Assembly (NCBI GenBank): GCA_029260655.1 | Contig: JAJDCU010000043.1 | Coordinates: 62,001-126,000 of the forward strand | Source of the DNA: Phycisphaeraceae bacterium | Lineage (GTDB): Bacteria; Planctomycetota; Phycisphaerae; Phycisphaerales; Phycisphaeraceae | Length of the DNA stretch: 64,000 nucleotides | Direction of reading: 5' to 3' | Shown here: positions 804-11,313 of the stretch, piece by piece | How the letters are laid out: each line of letters begins with the position of its first letter | How positions within the stretch are numbered: the first letter of the stretch is position 1 | The notes under the pieces: generated by a model | Databases searched by the model: none | What the model was told of the DNA's origin: nothing | The model's input: the letters and a program-made list of their open reading frames with translations, nothing else | Position numbers and translations under genes: made by a program

Positions 804-1931
804 ATGACAGATACTCAACGTGCTTCGGATCCGCGGCCGCCCCTGCGGGTGTTGGCGTCGGCTCGTCGGGCTTGCGCGCGGCGCTGGGTTTGTTGGCGCT
901 GGATGGTTTTAGTCATGGTGGGGTGGGCCGTAGCCGGGTGCGCCGCGCCCGCGGGCCCGATCTTCCTCGCCCAGCCGGACGACCCGTTCTGGCCTGCGCC
1001 CCCCGAGCTGCCGCGGGTCAGGTACGTCGGGTCGCTGAGCACCGACCAAGACCTGAAGCCGGAAAAATCCTTGTTCACCCGCGTGGGCGAATCCTTGTTC
1101 GGGGACGAAGCGGCGCAGGGGATGCTCAGCCCTTATGCCTTGTGCACCGATGGCGGCGACCGGCTGTTCGTCGCCGACTCCAATGCGCAAGTTGTTCACG
1201 TCTTCGACCTTGCGACGCGCCAATACGCGCGGTGGGCGCCGCCGGGCCCCGATGGCGAGCCGGGGCGTTTCTCCCAGCCCGCCGGCGTGGCGTATGACCC
1301 GGCGGGGCGGTTAATCGTCTCCGACTCGGTCGAGGGCTCGTTGGTGGTGTTTGACGATCAGGGCGTCTACCTCGGTCGGATCGGCGAAGCGTCGCTGAAG
1401 CGCCCGGCCGGTCTCGCGATCGACCCCGATCGCCAACGTCTATTCGTCGCAGACGTACCCACCCATCAGGTCGTGGTGATGACACTCGAGGGTGAGTTGA
1501 TCCGCCGGCTGGGCCAGCGCGGCGCCGGGCCGGGCGAATTCAATTTTCCGACCAACGTCGCCGTCGACAGCGAGGGCCGGCTATACGTCAGCGATTCGCT
1601 GAACTTCCGCGTCCAGATGTTCGACGTCGAACTCCGCCCGACCCGTCAGATCGGCCGCGGCGGCAACCTGCCGGGGTACTTCTCCCAGCCCAAGGGAGTG
1701 TCGGTTGACCAGGACGGGCACATGTATGTGGTCGATGCTCATTTTGAGGCGGTTCAGATCTTCGACGCCACCGGGCGGCTGCTGCTGACCTTCGGGGAAG
1801 AGGGGCGCGGGCCCGGTCAGTTCTGGCTCCCGGCGGGGATCTTCATCGACCCGAGCAACCGGATCTGGATCGCAGACACGTACAACCGGCGCGTCCAGGT
1901 CTTCGACTACCTGGTGGAGGATCAGCCATGA
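804..1931 (+). CDS. NHL-repeat (six-bladed propeller) lipoprotein
   Basis: A protein of 375 residues. A basic N-terminus is followed by a hydrophobic stretch and a lipobox (AVAGC, Cys46), which predicts an exported lipoprotein. ATG 804 follows GAGGAAG; ATG 903 (MVLVMVG) would give a shorter leader and cannot be excluded. Residues about 85-370 hold six repeats of the NHL type, each with a core like YVSDSLNFRVQMFD or WIADTYNRRVQVFD, which build a beta-propeller. Its stop overlaps the start of the multihaem cytochrome gene by four bases, so the two are translationally coupled. Propellers of this kind usually dock partner proteins, and here the cytochrome is the obvious candidate (inference). Confidence 0.85.
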   Translation: MTDTQRASDPRPPLRVLASARRACARRWVCWRWMVLVMVGWAVAGCAAPAGPIFLAQPDDPFWPAPPELPRVRYVGSLSTDQDLKPEKSLFTRVGESLFGDEAAQGMLSPYALCTDGGDRLFVADSNAQVVHVFDLATRQYARWAPPGPDGEPGRFSQPAGVAYDPAGRLIVSDSVEGSLVVFDDQGVYLGRIGEASLKRPAGLAIDPDRQRLFVADVPTHQVVVMTLEGELIRRLGQRGAGPGEFNFPTNVAVDSEGRLYVSDSLNFRVQMFDVELRPTRQIGRGGNLPGYFSQPKGVSVDQDGHMYVVDAHFEAVQIFDATGRLLLTFGEEGRGPGQFWLPAGIFIDPSNRIWIADTYNRRVQVFDYLVEDQP

Positions 1932-3541
1932 ACCGCTTTGTATTCGCCTTGCCCGTGATCCTGATCGCCGCTTCGGTTTATGGCCAGGCAGGCCGCGGCG
2001 CGAGCGTGATCGACACGCCGCACAACCTGTCGGTCTCCGGCCCCGGCGGCGTCCACGCGGTCAGCGAGCAGCGTGTGTGTGTGTTCTGCCACACGCCCCA
2101 CGCCGCCTCGCCGGTTCAGCCGCTATGGAACCGCTTCCAGCCGGTCAACGCGTACACCGTCTATTCCAGCAGCTCGCTGGATGCGATCACGGGCCAGCCA
2201 ACCGGTTCCAGTAAGCTGTGCCTGTCCTGCCACGACGGCACGATCGCGCTGGGCAGCGTGCTCTCGCAAGGCCAGCAGATCCAGATGGCTGGGAGTTTGA
2301 CGACGATCCCGCCGGGCAGCACGAACCTGGGCACGGACCTGTCCGACGACCACCCCGTTTCATTCAGGTACGACACGTTCCTGGTCTCGCGCGACCCCAA
2401 ACTGCGCCCCCCCTCGGGCCTGCCCGCCGAAATCAGGCTGGACGCCAACCAGGAGCTGCAATGCACCGCCTGCCACGACGCCCACGACAACTCGTCCGGC
2501 GGCTTCATGGTCATGAGCAACACCAACTCGCAGTTGTGTACGAGCTGTCACCAGATCCTTTCGACCACCGTCACCGGGCACGAAAACTGCCTGGGCTGTC
2601 ACCAGGTCCACACCGCGCCCAGCGGCCCGTTCCTGATGCAGGGCGTCAACGCACGCGCCACCTGCCTAACTTGTCACGACGGCTCGACCTCGGCGCCGAA
2701 CATCGCCGCGGACATGAGCAAGTCCTCCGTTCACGACACCGACAGTTCCGCCGACCCAATCGATCCGATCCCCGATCACGTGAGCTGCGCCGATTGTCAC
2801 GAGCCGCACACGATGAACACCGGGCAGGCCGCGGCGCCCGACGTGCACCCGAACTTCGGCCAGGTCAGCGGGGTCAGCCTGACCGGGGCCGAAATCGACC
2901 CGGCGCAGTTTGAGTACGAGGTCTGTTTCAAGTGTCACGACGACCAGGCCGCCGTTACGCCGTGGATCAGCCGGTTGGCTGTCCAGAACAACACCCGCCT
3001 GGAGTTCAGCCCGTCTTCGGTGTCTTTCCACCCGGTCGTCACGACGGGGCGCAATAGCGACGTCCCCAGCCTCAAGACAGGCTTGACTCCCGCGAGCCTG
3101 ATCCATTGCACCGACTGCCACGGCTCGGACAACGGCGCCTCGGGCGTCTCCGGGGCGCACGGCTCAGCCTCCCGGCCTCTGCTGGTCGCACGTTACGACA
3201 CTGCAGAGCAAACCTCCGAAAGCGCCTCGGCCTATGCCCTGTGCTATCAATGCCATGAACGCACGAGCATCCTCAACGACGACAGCTTTGAGAGGCACGA
3301 TAAACACGTGCGCGGCGAACGTATCCCGTGCTCGGCCTGTCATGATGCGCACGGGATCAACTCGGCCCAGGGGACCACGACCAATAACAGCCACCTGATC
3401 AACTTCGACAGCACCGTGGCCTTCCCCTCGCCGAAGGCGGGGAACGTTGGGCCGATCTTCATCGATCAGGGCAACCGAGCCGGGACCTGCACGCTCCTGT
3501 GCCACGGAGAAGACCACGACGACGAGAACTACGGCCCCTGA
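1928..3541 (+). CDS. Secreted dodecahaem c-type cytochrome
   Basis: A protein of 537 residues with a signal peptide (MNRFVFALPVILIAASVYG). It has eleven CXXCH haem-attachment sites (CVFCH, CLSCH, CTACH, CTSCH, CLGCH, CLTCH, CADCH, CFKCH, CTDCH, CYQCH, CSACH) and one terminal CX3CH site (CTLLCH), so up to twelve haems. Several sites continue as CHDAH, CHTPH or CHEPH, the doubled-motif style of cytochrome c3/c7-like families. The role is presumably electron transfer in the periplasm or at the outer membrane; no catalytic signature such as that of nitrite or hydroxylamine enzymes is evident. It starts inside the NHL-lipoprotein stop (ATGA) and is followed by a 408-base gap before the cytochrome maturation genes that would supply its haems. 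Confidence 0.92.
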   Translation: MNRFVFALPVILIAASVYGQAGRGASVIDTPHNLSVSGPGGVHAVSEQRVCVFCHTPHAASPVQPLWNRFQPVNAYTVYSSSSLDAITGQPTGSSKLCLSCHDGTIALGSVLSQGQQIQMAGSLTTIPPGSTNLGTDLSDDHPVSFRYDTFLVSRDPKLRPPSGLPAEIRLDANQELQCTACHDAHDNSSGGFMVMSNTNSQLCTSCHQILSTTVTGHENCLGCHQVHTAPSGPFLMQGVNARATCLTCHDGSTSAPNIAADMSKSSVHDTDSSADPIDPIPDHVSCADCHEPHTMNTGQAAAPDVHPNFGQVSGVSLTGAEIDPAQFEYEVCFKCHDDQAAVTPWISRLAVQNNTRLEFSPSSVSFHPVVTTGRNSDVPSLKTGLTPASLIHCTDCHGSDNGASGVSGAHGSASRPLLVARYDTAEQTSESASAYALCYQCHERTSILNDDSFERHDKHVRGERIPCSACHDAHGINSAQGTTTNNSHLINFDSTVAFPSPKAGNVGPIFIDQGNRAGTCTLLCHGEDHDDENYGP

Positions 3542-3949: not shown

Positions 3950-4366
3950 ATGACACACACACGCACCAAGCTGTTGATCGCCGCGGTGGTCCTCACCGCC
4001 TCGGTGGGCTATCTGGCGCTGGCCGGGGTCAAGAGCGGCTGGGTCTACTACCTGCAGGTCGACGCTTTTCTTGAGGATGACACGTACCAGGACCAGCGTG
4101 TGCGTCTGTACGGGCTGGTCGACGATCAAGACATCGAAGCCAGGCCGGCGATGTTGACCGCCCGGTTTAAGCTCAACGGGGAAAGCCGAAGCATCCAGGT
4201 CGCCTACCTGGGGGTGATCCCCGACACCTTCAAGCCCGGTGGCGAGGTCATGATCGAGGGCAAGCTCGATGAGGCTGGCGTCTTCCAGGCCGACGTCCTG
4301 ATGACCAAGTGCGCCAGCAAGTACCAGTCCGAGGAACACGCCAAGCGGCTGGAGGAGGCGTCATGA
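3950..4366 (+). CDS. ccmE: Haem chaperone CcmE, cysteine variant
   Basis: A protein of 138 residues: one N-terminal membrane anchor (about residues 7-26) and an OB-fold periplasmic domain. CcmE receives haem from the CcmABCD complex and hands it to CcmF for attachment to apocytochromes. In the classical protein the haem is bound through a His in an HXXXY motif. Here the corresponding segment reads MTKCASKY, that is CXXXY with Cys121 and Tyr125. A Cys-type CcmE is known from some sulphate reducers and archaea, where it goes with absence of CcmG and CcmH. The stop overlaps the ccmF start (ATGA). Confidence 0.9.
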   Translation: MTHTRTKLLIAAVVLTASVGYLALAGVKSGWVYYLQVDAFLEDDTYQDQRVRLYGLVDDQDIEARPAMLTARFKLNGESRSIQVAYLGVIPDTFKPGGEVMIEGKLDEAGVFQADVLMTKCASKYQSEEHAKRLEEAS

Positions 4367-6441
4367 TCAGCGGGCTTGGCAACCCGAGCCTGACCGCGGC
4401 GGTGTTGCTGGCGGCGGCGGCGCTGTTCACAGCCATCGCGTCGGCGAAGCTAGGTAGCGACAGGATGCTCATCTGGTCACGGCGCTTGCTGTATATCTTT
4501 TGCGCTGCGATTGTCCTTGCCTGCGCCGATTTGATGACGGCGTTGGTCAACAGCGATTTTCACAACGCTTACGTCGCAAGCTACACCGAGCGTGCGCTGC
4601 CGATCGGGTACAAGATCGCCGCCTTCTGGGCCGGTCAGGAAGGCAGCCTGCTGCTGTGGGCGCTGCTGCTGGCGGGGATGAGCGCGGTCGCGGCGATCGG
4701 CTTCCGCAAACGGGCAAGGACCGAGCAGGCGGCGATGCTGGCGGTATTGGCGGTCGTCTGCGGGTTCTTCGCGGCGCTGATGCTGTTCGCCGCCAACCCG
4801 TTCGTTCAGTTGCCGGTTCAGGCGGTCGACGGGCACGGGCTCAACCCGCTGCTGCAAGACCCGTACATGATCGCCCACCCGCCGCTATTGTTCGTCGGGT
4901 ACGCCGGGTACACCGTCCCCTGGGCGATGATGCTCGCCGCCCTGATCGCCGGACGCAGCGACAACCAATGGATCGGCGCGACCCGCCGGTGGCTGATGTT
5001 CTCCTGGCTGTTCCTGACGGTCGGGATCGTGCTGGGCGCCAAGTGGGCGTACATCGAGCTGGGCTGGGGCGGGTACTGGGCGTGGGACCCGGTCGAGAAC
5101 GCGTCGCTGCTTCCCTGGCTCACCGGTACGGCCTTGCTGCACTCGGTGATGGTCCAGCAGCAAAGGGGGATGTTCAAGGTCTGGAACGCCGCGCTGATCG
5201 CGTGCACCTTCCTGCTGTGCATCTTCGGGACCTACCTGACTCGCAGCGGCGTTGTCCAGTCGGTCCACTCCTTCGGCGAATCGGTGATCGGGACGTTTTT
5301 CCTGGTGTTCCTGCTGGTGTGCATATTGCTGAGCGTCGGCGTCGGCATTGCCCGAAGGCGCTTGCTCAAGGGCGAGCAGCCTCTGGAGGACTTGATGACC
5401 AAGGAAGGCGCGTTCCTGGCGCTGAACGTGCTGCTTGTGCTGATGACGCTGACCACGCTGGTCGGGACGGTGTTCCCCCTGATCAGCGGCGTGGTGCTGG
5501 ACGAGCCGGTCAGTGTTGGCGCGGCGTTCTACAACAAGGCCGTCATCCCACTGGCGCTTGTGTTACTCGCGTTGATGTCCGCCGGACCGCTGCTGACCTA
5601 CGGCAAGGACGCGGCGAAAGTGCTTGGGCGCGGGCTGATCGTCCCGGGATTCGCCGCCATCGTGGCCGTGACGGCCGCGGTGAATATGGGCGTGACCAAC
5701 CCCTGGGCCCTGGTATGCACAGCGGTCGCGGCCGTGGCGGTGTTCGCTGTCGCCGTTGCCCTGGTCAAATCCGTCCGGCAGCGAGGGCTGATCCATGATG
5801 ATGAAAGCCCGTTGATCGCCGCGGCCCGGGTTATCGACGGCAGCCACCGGCGCTACGGCGGGCAGGCGATCCATATGGGCATGATTATGTTGATGGTCGG
5901 CGTCGCCGGATCGAGCCTGTTCAGTGTCAGCGAAACGTTCCAATTGCGTGCGGGCGAGTCGGGCACCCTCGGCAAGTACACGCTGAACTTCACCGATCTC
6001 AACGAGACGCGCCACGCCAACTACACCGCCGTCGCGGCACACGTCACGCTGACCGGCCCGGACGGCGCCGAGACGACGATGCACCCGCAGATGCGCTTCT
6101 ACGACAAGACCGAACAGCCCAGCGCCCAGGTCGCGCTGCGGTCGTCGCTTGGGCGCGACGCCTACCTGACGCTGGCCGGTTGGGAAGAAGGCGGAAAGCT
6201 CGTGGCGATCCAGGCGATCATCAACCCCCTGGTCGCGTGGATCTGGATCGGCGGGATCGTCATGACCGCCGGGGCGGTCTTCTGCCTGCTGCCCTGTTTG
6301 CTGCCCGAACCTAAGCCTGTCACCGCGATGTCGCACGCCAGGCCGACCGCTTCGATCTCGCTGACGCTGGCCGGGGACGGCCAATGTATGTCACAAACGA
6401 CTCGCACTCACGCAACCCTCTGCCAGGAGGCACGGACATGA
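4363..6441 (+). CDS. ccmF: Cytochrome c haem lyase subunit CcmF
   Basis: A protein of 692 residues counted from ATG 4363, which is preceded by GGAGGAGG and overlaps the ccmE stop. It is a polytopic inner-membrane protein with the tryptophan-rich haem-handling WWD motif WGGYWAWDPVENASLLPW at about residues 233-250, and long hydrophobic segments before and after. CcmF joins haem from CcmE to the CXXCH cysteines of exported apocytochromes. No ccmH, its usual partner, is found in this operon, so CcmF may act alone or with the uncharacterised gene that follows. The last 40 or so residues are polar and unlike the core. The stop overlaps the next start (ATGA). Confidence 0.95.
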   Translation: MISGLGNPSLTAAVLLAAAALFTAIASAKLGSDRMLIWSRRLLYIFCAAIVLACADLMTALVNSDFHNAYVASYTERALPIGYKIAAFWAGQEGSLLLWALLLAGMSAVAAIGFRKRARTEQAAMLAVLAVVCGFFAALMLFAANPFVQLPVQAVDGHGLNPLLQDPYMIAHPPLLFVGYAGYTVPWAMMLAALIAGRSDNQWIGATRRWLMFSWLFLTVGIVLGAKWAYIELGWGGYWAWDPVENASLLPWLTGTALLHSVMVQQQRGMFKVWNAALIACTFLLCIFGTYLTRSGVVQSVHSFGESVIGTFFLVFLLVCILLSVGVGIARRRLLKGEQPLEDLMTKEGAFLALNVLLVLMTLTTLVGTVFPLISGVVLDEPVSVGAAFYNKAVIPLALVLLALMSAGPLLTYGKDAAKVLGRGLIVPGFAAIVAVTAAVNMGVTNPWALVCTAVAAVAVFAVAVALVKSVRQRGLIHDDESPLIAAARVIDGSHRRYGGQAIHMGMIMLMVGVAGSSLFSVSETFQLRAGESGTLGKYTLNFTDLNETRHANYTAVAAHVTLTGPDGAETTMHPQMRFYDKTEQPSAQVALRSSLGRDAYLTLAGWEEGGKLVAIQAIINPLVAWIWIGGIVMTAGAVFCLLPCLLPEPKPVTAMSHARPTASISLTLAGDGQCMSQTTRTHATLCQEART

Positions 6442-7730
6442 CACGCCTGACACTTACAGCTCTCCTGATCTCCGCCGTCGTATTCGCCGTACCGCCTAAG
6501 TCGCTCGGCGAAGCGCCTCAAACGCAGACCGACAGCGCGCAGGATGACACCGATACCTCATTGCCGCAGGGTCACCCCCAGCTGCCCGCGGACCCTCCCG
6601 AACTGCCGCAGGGTCACCCCGACTTACCGCAGGGCCAGCAGCCTTTGCCGTCCGGCCACCCAAGCGTCCCCGATCAAGCGCCCGGCGCGCCTGCGTCCGC
6701 CATCGGTTCGTTGACACTCAAGGTCGTCCAGGGCACCGAAGGCGGTCCGCCTATCACGGCCGGCGAGTTGGTCGTGTTCCTTTATCACCAGGACAAGCCG
6801 ATCGCCTCGGCGAAAGCGGAAGTGGACGCCACGGGCACGGCGGTGATCGAAGGGGTCCAGCTCACCACGATCGTCCAGCCGGTCGTCACCTTTGATTATG
6901 CAGGCGTGACCTACCAGGCGGCCGGCCGACCGATGGGACCGAGCAATCCCGAGCAGACGATCAGTCTGACCGCGTACGAAGCGACCGACCAGGCGCCGCC
7001 CTGGCAGGTCATGATGCGGCACGTGATGGTCAATCGGATGGGCGAGCACGTGCACGTGACCGAGGTGTGGGCGGTTAGCAACCCGACCGACCGCAGTTGG
7101 ATCGGTACCCTCGCGCCACCCGTCGCCGCCGAGCCGGCCCATACCCAGGACGACGGCCACGGCCACACCCAGGACGCGCAGGCCCACGAGCCCAAAGGCG
7201 TCACGCTTATCTTCCCGCTGCCGGAAGGGTCGATGCACGTGCAGCCGGGCCCGGGGTTTCATAACTGCTGTACACAAGTCCAGCGGGACAAGGTCGTGAA
7301 CACGATGCCGTTGCTTCCGGGGATCAGTGAATACCGGGTGGACTACCTGATCCCGATCGACGCCGGCGAGGTGAGCCTGGCGCTGAGGACCCCGGCGGCG
7401 GTCAAGCACATGATGGTGTTCGTGCCCGACGACGGTTCATCGGTGGACGTGCAGGGCCTTGAGGGCGGCGAGCCGTTCGAGGCCGGCGAGCAGCGGCTAC
7501 GGATCTACAAAGCCAATGACCTGACCGCGGGTCAGGCCGCCACGCTGGTGATCGGGTTCGATAAACCCGCCGCCAGTGACGCAACCTTCACCCAGCCCCC
7601 AGCCCCCGCACAGGCGCTAAACTCGATGAAACTCATCGCCGGCCTGGGCGGTGGCGCGCTGCTGCTGGCCTGCGTGGTTGTGTTGCTTAGGCCAACCAGG
7701 AAGACGACATCACCGCAGCCCGCGGTGTAG
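6438..7730 (+). CDS. Uncharacterised Ccm-operon membrane-anchored protein with LPQGHP repeats
   Basis: A protein of 430 residues from ATG 6438, preceded by CAGGAGG. It has a signal peptide, then a Pro/Gly/His-rich segment at about residues 37-80 with repeats LPQGHPQLP, LPQGHPDLP, LPQGQQPLP and LPSGHPSVP. A beta-rich region follows that resembles carboxypeptidase-regulatory-type domains (FDYAGVTYQAAGRPMG), then an HNCCTQ segment near residue 275, and a C-terminal membrane helix (about residues 395-415) with a short basic tail. I do not recognise a named family. It sits between ccmF and ccmA with a four-base overlap upstream and no gap downstream, so it is probably part of the maturation machinery. 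Haem or metal binding through the repeated His, or the apocytochrome handling normally done by CcmG/CcmH, are inferences. Confidence 0.75.
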   Translation: MTRLTLTALLISAVVFAVPPKSLGEAPQTQTDSAQDDTDTSLPQGHPQLPADPPELPQGHPDLPQGQQPLPSGHPSVPDQAPGAPASAIGSLTLKVVQGTEGGPPITAGELVVFLYHQDKPIASAKAEVDATGTAVIEGVQLTTIVQPVVTFDYAGVTYQAAGRPMGPSNPEQTISLTAYEATDQAPPWQVMMRHVMVNRMGEHVHVTEVWAVSNPTDRSWIGTLAPPVAAEPAHTQDDGHGHTQDAQAHEPKGVTLIFPLPEGSMHVQPGPGFHNCCTQVQRDKVVNTMPLLPGISEYRVDYLIPIDAGEVSLALRTPAAVKHMMVFVPDDGSSVDVQGLEGGEPFEAGEQRLRIYKANDLTAGQAATLVIGFDKPAASDATFTQPPAPAQALNSMKLIAGLGGGALLLACVVVLLRPTRKTTSPQPAV

Positions 7731-8510
7731 ATGGACGAACCGGAGATCAGGCCCGTGACCGTTTTGACCGCACAACCCGCACACGAACGAACCGACGCCG
7801 TGCCCGATACGGCCCGGCTCGCGGTGCGGATGGTGGGGCTGTGCAAGCGATTCGATGAGCGGTGGGTGCTGCGCGACGTCAACCTGGACGTGCCAAGCGG
7901 AACCTACCTGGCGCTCTTGGGTGCTAACGGCGCCGGCAAGAGCACGTTGCTGCACACCCTCGCGATGCTAAGCCCAGCCACGTCCGGCACGCTCAATCTC
8001 TTCGGGTTATCCGCTACGAGGCCAGCACCTGCACTGCGGGCTCGTCTTGGGATGATCGGCCACCAGCCGATGCTCTACCGCGATCTTTCGGCGATCGAGA
8101 ACCTGATCTTCTTCGGCAGGCTCTACGGCGTATCCAGGCCCCGGCAACGCGCTGAGGAAATGCTCGAACGTGTCGGCCTGACCAACCGCGCACGCAGCCC
8201 GGTCAAGACATTCAGCCGGGGCATGGTCCAGCGGCTGGCGATCGCGCGGGCTCTGATGCACGCACCGGACCTGATCCTCGCGGACGAGCCGTTCTCCGGG
8301 CTGGACGTGCCGTCGGTGCTGGCGCTTCAGCGGCTTCTCGCCGAGCTGCACGCCGAGGGCAAGACGATCATCCTGGCCAACCACGACATCGGCCAGAGCC
8401 TTGACCTGGCGCAGCGTGTGGTCGTGCTCCGCAGCGGACAGGTCGTTTCGGACCGCCGGACGCTGGACACCGACACCGACCAGGTCACCCGGGAGGTGAT
8501 CGAGGCATGA
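7731..8510 (+). CDS. ccmA: Haem exporter ATP-binding protein CcmA
   Basis: A protein of 259 residues and a typical ABC ATPase: Walker A GANGAGKST (residues 64-72), signature FSRGMVQR, Walker B LILADEP and the switch His in ILANHDIG. With CcmB it forms the ATPase that releases holo-CcmE from CcmC. The N-terminal 30 residues are not part of the ABC fold, so a later start is possible. The assigned ATG follows directly on the stop of the preceding gene, and the stop overlaps ccmB (ATGA). Placement between ccmF and ccmB-ccmC supports CcmA over other exporter ATPases. Confidence 0.92.
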   Translation: MDEPEIRPVTVLTAQPAHERTDAVPDTARLAVRMVGLCKRFDERWVLRDVNLDVPSGTYLALLGANGAGKSTLLHTLAMLSPATSGTLNLFGLSATRPAPALRARLGMIGHQPMLYRDLSAIENLIFFGRLYGVSRPRQRAEEMLERVGLTNRARSPVKTFSRGMVQRLAIARALMHAPDLILADEPFSGLDVPSVLALQRLLAELHAEGKTIILANHDIGQSLDLAQRVVVLRSGQVVSDRRTLDTDTDQVTREVIEA

Positions 8511-9184
8511 TGCAAGTGATCCAACAGATCGCGCTATTGACCGGCAAGGATCTTCGCGTCGAGGCGCGCAGCCGGCAGACCCTTGGCCTGGTTGTCGTGC
8601 TGGGGATATTAATCGTCGTGGTGCTTGGCCTTGGCCTGGGCCCCCAGCAGGTGGCGTCCGGTCAGGCGGCGACCGCGGTCCTGTGGGTGGCGTACCTGTT
8701 TGGCGGGGTGCTTTGCTTTGAGAAGACGATGGCGGTCGAAAGGCACGACGGAGCACTGGCGGGCTTGATGTTGGCGCCGATCGACCGGGGTGTGATCTAC
8801 GCCGGCAAGTTCATCAGCAACCTCGTGCTGATGGTGGCGTTGGCGCTGGTCGTCACGCCGGTCGCGGTCGTGATGTTCGGGTTCGACCTGTCGGCCGCGC
8901 CGTGGGGCTTTGCTTTAATCATGGCGGGGGGTTTTGTCGGCTTCGCCGCGGTGGGCACACTCTTTGCAGCCGCGGTCAGTTCGAGCCGGCTGCAGGGGGG
9001 GCTGCTGGCGATGGTCGTCTTCCCCGTATCGCTGCCTCTGGTGATCGCATCGACCCAGATGATGTTGCATCTATTCCGTGACGGCGAACCGGTCGGGGGG
9101 GCCGGGCTGGCGGTGCTGCTGGCATTCGATGCGATCTACCTGGTCGTGAGCTGGCTGGTGTTTGAAGTCATCCTCGAACCCTGA
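8507..9184 (+). CDS. ccmB: Haem exporter permease CcmB
   Basis: A protein of 225 residues with about six hydrophobic segments. The cytosolic start (ALLTGKDLRVEARSRQTL) and the segment RHDGALAGLMLAPIDR are characteristic of CcmB. It is the membrane partner of CcmA in the complex that frees haem-loaded CcmE. It is coupled to ccmA by a four-base overlap and lies 10 bases before ccmC. Confidence 0.93.
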   Translation: MMQVIQQIALLTGKDLRVEARSRQTLGLVVVLGILIVVVLGLGLGPQQVASGQAATAVLWVAYLFGGVLCFEKTMAVERHDGALAGLMLAPIDRGVIYAGKFISNLVLMVALALVVTPVAVVMFGFDLSAAPWGFALIMAGGFVGFAAVGTLFAAAVSSSRLQGGLLAMVVFPVSLPLVIASTQMMLHLFRDGEPVGGAGLAVLLAFDAIYLVVSWLVFEVILEP

Positions 9185-9194
9185 GAGACCCGTG

Positions 9195-9899
9195 ATGACC
9201 AAGCTGAAAAAAACTTTGATGACCGGGTACTGGCTCGTAACACTCGCGCTCTTCGCTTTCGCGATCGCGGTGGTATTCGCCTGGACCCCGATCGAAGCGA
9301 CGATGGGCCCTGTGCAGAAGATCTTCTACCTGCACCTGCCGATCGCGATCAACACGTTCCTGGCGTGCCTGGTCACATTCATAGCCAGCGTCGGTTACCT
9401 CTGGCAACGGCGGCAATTCTGGGACGACCTGGCGGTGTCCTCGGCCAAGGTCGCGGTGCTGCTGTGCTCGATCGTGTTGCTGACCGGGATGATCTGGGGC
9501 CACAGCGCCTGGGGCAGGTGGTGGACATGGAGCCCGAGGCTGACATTCAGCCTGGTGCTCTGGCTGCTGTACGTCGCCTACTTGGTGATCCGCCCGTCGA
9601 TCGAATCGCGCGAGCGCCGGGCACTGGTCAGCGCAGTTTACGGCATCGTCGCTTTTCTTGATGTGCCGCTGGTTTACCTGTCCGTGAAGCTGATGCCCGA
9701 TATCCACCCCACGTCGATCCAGCTGGCACCCGAAATGAAGCTGACCCTGTTGCTGTGCTTTGTCTCGGTGACGCTGCTGACGGTCGGGCTGATCGCGGCG
9801 CGTTACCGGCTGCATCGGATCGAATCCGCTGTGGGGGCCGGGCTTGATCTGCCGACGCCGACTAAGGTCCCGATCACACAACCAGGAGACGCCGCATGA
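9195..9899 (+). CDS. ccmC: Haem-handling protein CcmC
   Basis: A protein of 234 residues from ATG 9195 (MTKLKKTLMTGYW); an in-frame upstream start at 9162 would lie inside ccmB. It has six predicted membrane segments. CcmC loads haem onto CcmE. The Trp-rich periplasmic motif reads WGRWWTWSPRLT (about residues 104-115), whereas the family normally has Asp at the position occupied here by Ser (WD.RLT). The conserved loop start MGPVQKIFYLHLP is present. The stop overlaps a short ccmD-like gene (ATGA). Confidence 0.92.
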   Translation: MTKLKKTLMTGYWLVTLALFAFAIAVVFAWTPIEATMGPVQKIFYLHLPIAINTFLACLVTFIASVGYLWQRRQFWDDLAVSSAKVAVLLCSIVLLTGMIWGHSAWGRWWTWSPRLTFSLVLWLLYVAYLVIRPSIESRERRALVSAVYGIVAFLDVPLVYLSVKLMPDIHPTSIQLAPEMKLTLLLCFVSVTLLTVGLIAARYRLHRIESAVGAGLDLPTPTKVPITQPGDAA

Positions 9900-10039
9900 A
9901 CGGGACCGATTACGCCGTCGCCGCCTACCTGATCACGGCCTTGCTCCTGTGGGGCTATGCCGGGTCGCTTTGGTATTCCGGCCTCCGGATGAGAAACACA
10001 GACGCGAACGATGCCGGGCCGAGGAGTGATATGTCATGA
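9896..10039 (+). CDS. ccmD: CcmD-like single-span membrane protein
   Basis: A 47-residue frame from ATG 9896 to TGA 10039. One membrane helix (about residues 7-26, YAVAAYLITALLLWGYAGS) is followed by a polar cytoplasmic tail. CcmD is a small helper that stabilises the CcmABC-CcmE complex; it is poorly conserved, so the identification rests on size, topology and position. The start overlaps the ccmC stop and the stop overlaps the hemA start, both as ATGA, which strongly argues that it is translated. Confidence 0.8.
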   Translation: MNGTDYAVAAYLITALLLWGYAGSLWYSGLRMRNTDANDAGPRSDMS

Positions 10040-11313
10040 CCGTCCTTTTGATCGGCTTAAACCACCGCACCGCGCCCGTCGAGCTGCGCGAACAACTCGC
10101 GTTCAGCAGCGAGGGCGTCGCCACCGCGCTGATGCTGCTGCGCAACCAGTTCCCCCAGTCTGAGGCCGCGATCCTCTCGACCTGTAACCGCGTCGAGATC
10201 CTGATCGCCACCGAAGGCGACAGCCCGACCGAGAAGGACCTGATCTCGTTCCTGGCCCAGGCACGCGACCTTCCGGTGCCGGCGTTCAAGCCCTACCTCT
10301 ACCGCCTGCGTAACGAGAAGGCCGTCCGACACCTCTTCCGCGTCGCCGCCAGCCTGGACTCGATGGTCGTCGGAGAGTTCCAGATCGTCAGCCAGGTCAA
10401 GACCGCCTTCGCCCAGGCTAGCGAACAGGGCACGACCGGCCGGATGCTCAACCGCCTGTTCCACCAGGCTTTCACCACCAGCAAGCGCATCCACAGCGAG
10501 ACCGAGATCGGTAAACGCAAGGTCTCCATCCCCTCGGCCGCGGTGGACATCGCCCGCAGCATCTTCAGCGAGTTCACCGACAAGCACGTCCTGATCATCG
10601 GCGCAGGCGAGATGGCGCAGCTCGTCTGCCAATACCTGCGCAAGGCCGATGCCCGGAACTTCACCGTCACCAGCAGGACCCTGAATAACGCCCGCGCCCT
10701 GGCCAAGGCCTGCGACGGCTCGGCCGTGCCCTACGATCAGCTCGACGAGCAGCTCGCCAACGCAGACATCGTCGTCACCGCGACGCGCTGTCCTAAAGCC
10801 ATCATCACCGCTGACCGTCTCGCAGAAATACAAAAACAGCGCCGCCGGCGTTCGATGTTCATCATCGATCTGGCCGTCCCACGCAATGTCGACCCCGCGG
10901 TGAGCGAAATGGACAGTGTCTTTCTCTACGATATCGATGAGCTTGGCAGGATCGTCGCCGAGAACCAGCAGCACCGGATGAACCAGGTCGACCTGTGCGA
11001 GCGGATCCTCGACGAGGAGATCGACGCGTTCGAGCGCTGGCTCGATGAGAGCAGGGCCCGTCCGATGATCGAGCAGATGTTCACCGACGCCCAGAAAGTC
11101 CACGACCGCGAGCTGGCCGAGCTGTTCGCCGCCTGCCCGTGCCTGAGCGACGAGCAGCGTGACGCGGTCGCGCAGATGAGCCGCCGGCTGATGAATAAGT
11201 ACATGCACCCCTGCGCTTATACCCTCCGCCGCCACGCATCCTCCGGCGCCTCGGCGACGCTCGCCCAGACCCTTCACGCCATCACGCTCAAGCAGCGGCA
11301 TGCGGATGGATGA
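10036..11313 (+). CDS. hemA: Glutamyl-tRNA reductase
   Basis: A protein of 425 residues. The enzyme reduces glutamyl-tRNA to glutamate-1-semialdehyde, the first committed step of C5-pathway tetrapyrrole synthesis. The N-terminal catalytic domain has GLNHRTAPVE and STCNRVEI with the nucleophile Cys50, then GEFQIVSQVK. The Rossmann domain follows (VLIIGAGEMAQL, about residues 178-190), and then the helical dimerisation domain. It is the last gene of the ccm chain and starts inside the ccmD-like stop, so haem supply and cytochrome maturation are coupled at the translational level. Confidence 0.97.
   Translation: MTVLLIGLNHRTAPVELREQLAFSSEGVATALMLLRNQFPQSEAAILSTCNRVEILIATEGDSPTEKDLISFLAQARDLPVPAFKPYLYRLRNEKAVRHLFRVAASLDSMVVGEFQIVSQVKTAFAQASEQGTTGRMLNRLFHQAFTTSKRIHSETEIGKRKVSIPSAAVDIARSIFSEFTDKHVLIIGAGEMAQLVCQYLRKADARNFTVTSRTLNNARALAKACDGSAVPYDQLDEQLANADIVVTATRCPKAIITADRLAEIQKQRRRRSMFIIDLAVPRNVDPAVSEMDSVFLYDIDELGRIVAENQQHRMNQVDLCERILDEEIDAFERWLDESRARPMIEQMFTDAQKVHDRELAELFAACPCLSDEQRDAVAQMSRRLMNKYMHPCAYTLRRHASSGASATLAQTLHAITLKQRHADG

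Follow-up and report, generated by a model that had tools for sequence, protein, structure and literature searches.

How haem is attached to apocytochromes by System I*, in which CcmG and CcmH are lacking, is an open question, and one so far approached in terms of components that are missing. It arises again in a Phycisphaeraceae genome (3.52 Mb in 83 contigs, 95.2% complete): the window, that is, the whole 64,000-nucleotide stretch analysed (contig C43, 62001-126000), holds an operon of this kind. Does that operon itself encode a candidate for the missing partner? System I* was reportedly described by Allen 2006 and Goddard 2010. It combines a Cys-type CcmE with the absence of CcmH and CcmG, and is known from archaea and sulphate reducers and, later, from Chloroflexi and Firmicutes (PMC3601427); that of D. 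desulfuricans functions in E. coli without CcmG or CcmH (PMC3601427). The features of the window that bear on the question are these:

804 to 1931, + strand: NHL-repeat protein of the cytochrome cluster (NHL, 2.3e-34)
1928 to 3541, + strand: multihaem cytochrome with 11 CXXCH motifs by count, a likely substrate (Paired_CXXCH_1, 7.6e-25)
3950 to 4366, + strand: ccmE, haem chaperone of the Cys type, 138 aa (Pfam CcmE)
4363 to 6441, + strand: ccmF, haem lyase, WWD motif intact (WGGYWAWDPVEN; CcmF_C, 1.1e-55; Cytochrom_C_asm, 1.4e-36)
6438 to 7730, + strand: unnamed conserved System I* gene, provisionally 'ccmX', 430 aa, between ccmF and ccmA
7731 to 8510, + strand: ccmA, ABC ATPase (ABC_tran, 8e-31; operon position conserved)
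8507 to 9184, + strand: ccmB, membrane subunit (Pfam CcmB, 4.6e-26)
9195 to 9899, + strand: ccmC, variant WWD motif (Cytochrom_C_asm, 1.4e-25; TIGR01191 ccmC, 6.4e-28)
9896 to 10039, + strand: ccmD-like gene, 47 aa, one TM helix, overlapping ccmC at its stop and hemA at its start
10036 to 11313, + strand: hemA (glutamyl-tRNA reductase), closing the overlapping run with a four-base overlap with ccmD

The protein of 3950-4366 scores 86.2 bits (2e-24) against Pfam CcmE, whose cut-off is 24.6. Its motif is MTKC(121)ASKY(125), read on as MTKCASKYQ, with Cys121 encoded by TGC at 4310-4312 and Tyr125 by TAC at 4322-4324; Cys121 aligns with the Cys of 2KCT, the Cys-type CcmE of Desulfovibrio vulgaris, which is the best PDB match and closest solved relative. 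The codons and this alignment bear out the earlier note, which had read CXXXY (Cys121, Tyr125) in place of HXXXY. A search of the genome for CcmE returned only this single copy, of the Cys type, and no HXXXY form as in canonical System I. The locus thus has a CcmE-family protein with Cys for the haem-binding His, and CcmA, B, C and F encoded together, as System I* demands.

The gene order is ccmE-ccmF-[unnamed 6438-7730]-ccmA-ccmB-ccmC-ccmD-hemA; stop and start overlap by four bases at E/F, F/unnamed, A/B, C/D and D/hemA. The NCBIfam nrfE/ccmF family matches ccmF at 465 bits, under the model's cut-off, and the ccmA models and all ABC subfamily models match 7731-8510, likewise under theirs. Neither Pfam nor NCBIfam gives a convincing match to the 47-aa ORF behind ccmC; most relatives have a comparable short ORF there, and several have a hemA homologue downstream of ccmC. 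The earlier note had listed ccmE, F, A, B, C and a ccmD-like gene; all of these, the one-helix ccmD-like ORF included, are present, but it had left out the gene at 6438-7730, inside the operon. Elsewhere in the class, in a genome where that gene was not detected (G222, L044:8374-9912), a single 512-aa ORF reads as a CcmA-CcmB fusion.

Neither ccmG nor ccmH, which the note had missed in the operon, was recognised in the rest of the genome. A CcmH search that succeeds in E. coli, Caulobacter, Thermus and Deinobacterium gave no match anywhere in this genome, nor any CcmH with the LRCXXC of canonical System I, and no small membrane-anchored CXXC protein of the CcmG kind was seen among the Redoxin matches, one Pfam family being searched in a genome 95% complete. 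These matches number three: a peroxiredoxin, a 443-aa TlpA-like protein (WCQPC) and a redoxin-TPR protein without CXXC, none of them CcmG-like. How apocytochrome thiols are kept reduced, raised as a question by the earlier note, is less open than was implied: the genome encodes the TlpA-like WCQPC thioredoxin and, on C77, a 682-aa DsbD with N-terminal domain, TM domain and C-terminal thioredoxin, so candidate reductants exist; ResB of System II is present as well, on C3. A DsbD_TM match on C75 was rejected as CcdA, being a DsbD_2 protein adjoining cbb3-oxidase-like genes. C1 has a further cytochrome-assembly match at a contig end, and the CcsA partner of ResB is probably split across the contig ends of C1 and C3. 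Beside ResB, at the start of C3, an ORF (L142:39-1409) has a CcsA-linked-like N-terminal part and a strong GcpE match at its end, and is probably a chimeric contig end.

Is the Cys type peculiar to this organism? In a sample of the class, CcmE is found in 24/298 genomes and reads CXXXY in 24/24; alignment of the window CcmE with 23 class relatives shows CXXXY in all. A phylum sample, from whose motif count the weakest CcmE matches were left out, has CcmE in 41/392 genomes, and each of the 24 further loci read carries CXXXY (24/24) and adjoins ccmF. Planctomycetota loci read from unselected samples are thus CXXXY in 48/48; the Cys type is therefore not peculiar to the window, and these counts suggest that it is the prevailing, perhaps the sole, Ccm form in Planctomycetota. 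Loci from a contig scan for near relatives were kept out of the counts because the scan selected for TKCASKY; the nearest named relatives that it found are Phycisphaeraceae MAGs, at 75% CcmE identity. CcmH over the cut-off was found in 0/298 class genomes, and a CcmH gene inside a Cys-type operon in another planctomycete (G299, L180) and also in Poribacteria. A literature search, with most subscription journals outside its reach, found no paper on Ccm type in Planctomycetota. The guess of a probable planctomycete was right, the source belonging to Phycisphaerae with Phycisphaeraceae MAGs nearest. The accompanying claim that the finding broadens the system was overstated: this is the known System I*, and CXXXY is normal in this phylum. 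Retention of ccmD, offered as part of the novelty, broadens nothing, since D. desulfuricans already has ccmD and needs it (PMC9084895).

With the System I* of Desulfovibrio the window shares a CXXXY CcmE, CcmABCF, the lack of CcmH and its nearest solved CcmE; a ccmD-like gene is present and no CcmG was recognised. It departs from that system in its motif, CASKY where CPSKY is commonest, in an operon without a TPR CcmI, in the 6438-7730 gene between ccmF and ccmA, and in Ser for Asp in the WWD motif of CcmC. Archaeal Ccm, as in M. acetivorans, whose CcmE requires its Cys (PMC9084895), is likewise CXXXY and without CcmH/CcmI, but archaea lack ccmD and M. acetivorans CcmF is two genes, whereas the window has a ccmD-like gene and a CcmF of one gene. 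Homologues of CcmA, B, C, E and F, with a CcmD-like protein, are shared with canonical System I (E. coli CcmABCDEFGH), from which the window differs in having no HXXXY, no CcmH/CcmI and no recognised CcmG. Absence of CcmH is frequent but not definitive: CcmH is retained in roughly a third of Cys-type bacteria (PMC3601427), with which the CcmH genes in the Cys-type operons of G299 and Poribacteria agree. System II (ResB/CcsA), at another locus of the same genome, performs the same task with different components.

What stands out is the gene at 6438-7730, translationally coupled to ccmF through the overlap of its start codon with the stop codon of ccmF. Its product has a signal peptide, LPxGHPxL repeats at 42-80, beta-domains at about 88-373 and a C-terminal TM helix at 390-417, and matches nothing in Pfam or NCBIfam. 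Nearly all class loci have a homologue in the same place, between ccmF and ccmA (L032 and L037 have two tandem diverged copies). Profile A1 found homologues in 21/24 CcmE genomes of the class versus 1/274 without CcmE, the sole match there being marginal (Fisher p=5e-28, a value to be read knowing that related genomes are non-independent and that the positives, not the negatives, helped build the profile); the three CcmE genomes in which the gene went undetected are G037, G222 and G007. Beyond the class, homologues picked up with the class profile follow ccmC in Pirellulaceae and CcmH in Poribacteria and adjoin ccmF in Chloroflexi, and the gene is absent from the System I* loci of Desulfonatronovibrio and Neomarinimicrobiota. 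In the phylum sample profile A4 matched in 70 genomes, mostly through the CarboxypepD_reg-like domain alone (profile positions about 24-90), and such matches were discounted; strong long matches occur in nine genomes, of which eight have CcmE and the ninth, G336, has its ccm genes on a contig end.

An AF2 model of the protein has pLDDT mostly >90 over 88-373, except for a loop at about 220-250. In relatives the first domain is similar to CarboxypepD_reg, and the best PDB matches of the model are Ost1/ribophorin I of the oligosaccharyltransferase and the beta-domains of M1 aminopeptidases, with low whole-chain TM-scores; a viral fold library gave nothing useful. The CcmH-family domain with its Cys pair (PF03918) was looked for and not found, the protein having no Pfam match and no invariant Cys, and a TPR periplasmic domain of the CcmI family was likewise not found, in the absence of a Pfam match and with a model that is beta-rich. 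A hidden thiol reductase was rejected: the Cys pair 277-278 occurs only in some relatives, and no Cys is invariant. The LPxGHPxL repeats were rejected as a functional core, since only about half of the class homologues have them and the other clades aligned have none.

A link to the haem lyase comes from two other Planctomycetota, G405 (L176) and G336 (L177), in which the homologue, cut by the contig end in L177, starts with a CcmH-like N-terminal domain. In L176 this domain reads CPAYCEGTVLQKC...GTPDNMIIAHFAEKYGVHVL, the layout of CcmH. By sequence alone the likeness is weak, at 7 bits with the CcmH HMM; hhalign, run against the CcmH of Poribacteria, L179 and L180, returns a probability of 45% and E=2.2e-4, ten column shuffles serving as control giving 3.3e-3 or worse. 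The predicted fold of the 91-residue domain, from an AF2 model built from two sequences (pLDDT 73.7), matches P. aeruginosa CcmH (2HL7) with prob 1.00 and E. coli CcmH (2KW0) with prob 0.97; no other PDB entry exceeds prob 0.06. At the level of sequence and predicted fold, then, the unnamed family is fused to a CcmH-like domain and is therefore linked to the CcmF/CcmH synthase. Like CcmH/CcmI (NrfF/NrfG), which form the haem lyase on its apocytochrome side, the gene sits near ccmF, and in other lineages a CcmH domain is fused to its homologues or precedes them; unlike CcmH/CcmI, the window protein has no CcmH domain, conserved Cys or TPR, and is beta-rich, with CarboxypepD_reg-like and M1-peptidase/ribophorin-like folds. 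A separate CcmH coexists with it in Poribacteria, and the family is therefore not a simple CcmH substitute everywhere.

The reading that we favour, and hold to be reasonably probable, is that of an intact System I* operon with a previously unnamed subunit placed at CcmF in the CcmH/CcmI position, for apocytochrome handling or as a scaffold; the role of this protein is proposed from genomic association. By analogy with studied systems, CcmC, aided by CcmD, would present haem to CcmE, where Cys121 would hold it with Tyr125 as iron ligand; CcmAB would free holo-CcmE, and CcmF would join the haem to apocytochromes, foremost the multihaem cytochromes encoded next door. The 6438-7730 protein, anchored by its C-terminus with its beta-domains in the periplasm, might hold or guide apocytochromes beside CcmF. 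Having no conserved Cys, it would not itself reduce thiols; a general DsbD and TlpA/ResA-like route is the most likely reductant. As it tracks the system class-wide and is fused to a CcmH-like domain in relatives, the family offers a concrete candidate for the partner that is missing on the apocytochrome side.

The cytochromes next door suggest another employment for the protein. Upstream, from C43 52001 to 65541 (window 3541; L050), lie NHL proteins and multihaem cytochromes with 11, 13, 12, 4, 5 and 11 CXXCH motifs. A protein of 682 aa in this cluster, which ends at window 781 and has a C-terminal Phe and no Pfam match, looks like an outer-membrane beta-barrel; the cluster looks like a porin-cytochrome conduit. 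Homologues of the 682-aa protein lie near ccm in 31/54 locus records, some of them duplicates from one genome. The 6438-7730 protein could thus serve the export or assembly of these cytochromes rather than haem attachment, and multihaem cytochromes, NHL proteins and the beta-barrel-like protein do adjoin ccm in most Phycisphaerae loci. The gene, however, lies inside the ccm run and outside the cytochrome cluster, Pirellulaceae and Poribacteria keep it with ccm where no cytochrome/NHL cluster was detected, and the CcmH fusion points to the synthase; we regard this employment as improbable.

A plain System I* as in Desulfovibrio, in which CcmABCDEF suffice and the protein is an accessory, for instance a stabiliser of CcmF with no part in apocytochrome handling, has more to commend it, though we judge it unlikely. 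Function of the D. desulfuricans system in E. coli without CcmH or CcmG speaks for it (PMC3601427), as do the Desulfonatronovibrio and Neomarinimicrobiota loci and the few class genomes from which the gene is missing. Against this stand its near-strict co-occurrence in the class, its retention across phyla despite changed gene order, and the homologues fused to a CcmH-like domain. That the operon is silent or decaying, with the resident System II maturing all c-type cytochromes, we consider very improbable: ResB and the further assembly match at the C1 contig end are there, and Ccm is sporadic in the class (24/298), but no gene is broken, most of them overlap by four bases, diverged relatives keep both motif and gene order, and in most of these the operon adjoins multihaem cytochromes.

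A second departure lies in CcmC, whose WWD motif reads WGRWWTWSPRL in the window, with Ser at the position of E. coli D126, one of the most conserved residues of the WWD motif, which crosslinks to haem once replaced by Cys (PMC12077264). Of the locus records, 43, representing about 34 distinct loci and nearly all from Phycisphaerae, have Ser or Thr at this position; loci outside that class, along with one or two divergent members of it, have Asp or Glu. Mapped on a quick version of the CcmF tree the Ser/Thr label takes three changes, and its origin may be single. Going by the residue, the change from Asp could mean altered haem handling, and its natural occurrence offers a second handle on the role of this position. 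Taken with the favoured reading, it leads us to a bolder and frankly tentative one: that the 6438-7730 family is a hitherto undescribed core subunit of the Cys-type synthase, a beta-sandwich apocytochrome holder working with CcmF, with a CcmH domain alongside in other lineages and none in Phycisphaerae, where the CcmC WWD Asp, highly conserved otherwise, has also been lost. Should this be true, haem loading and haem transfer would both differ from those of the Ccm systems studied so far.

Among the cytochrome genes, two further ORFs (L050:4299-5369 and L145:5357-6517) have a thioredoxin-like region that lacks CXXC, followed by TPR repeats; because the second scores 42.9 bits against Pfam TPR_CcmH_CycH, whose cut-off is 42, the two may be CcmI-like apocytochrome chaperones.
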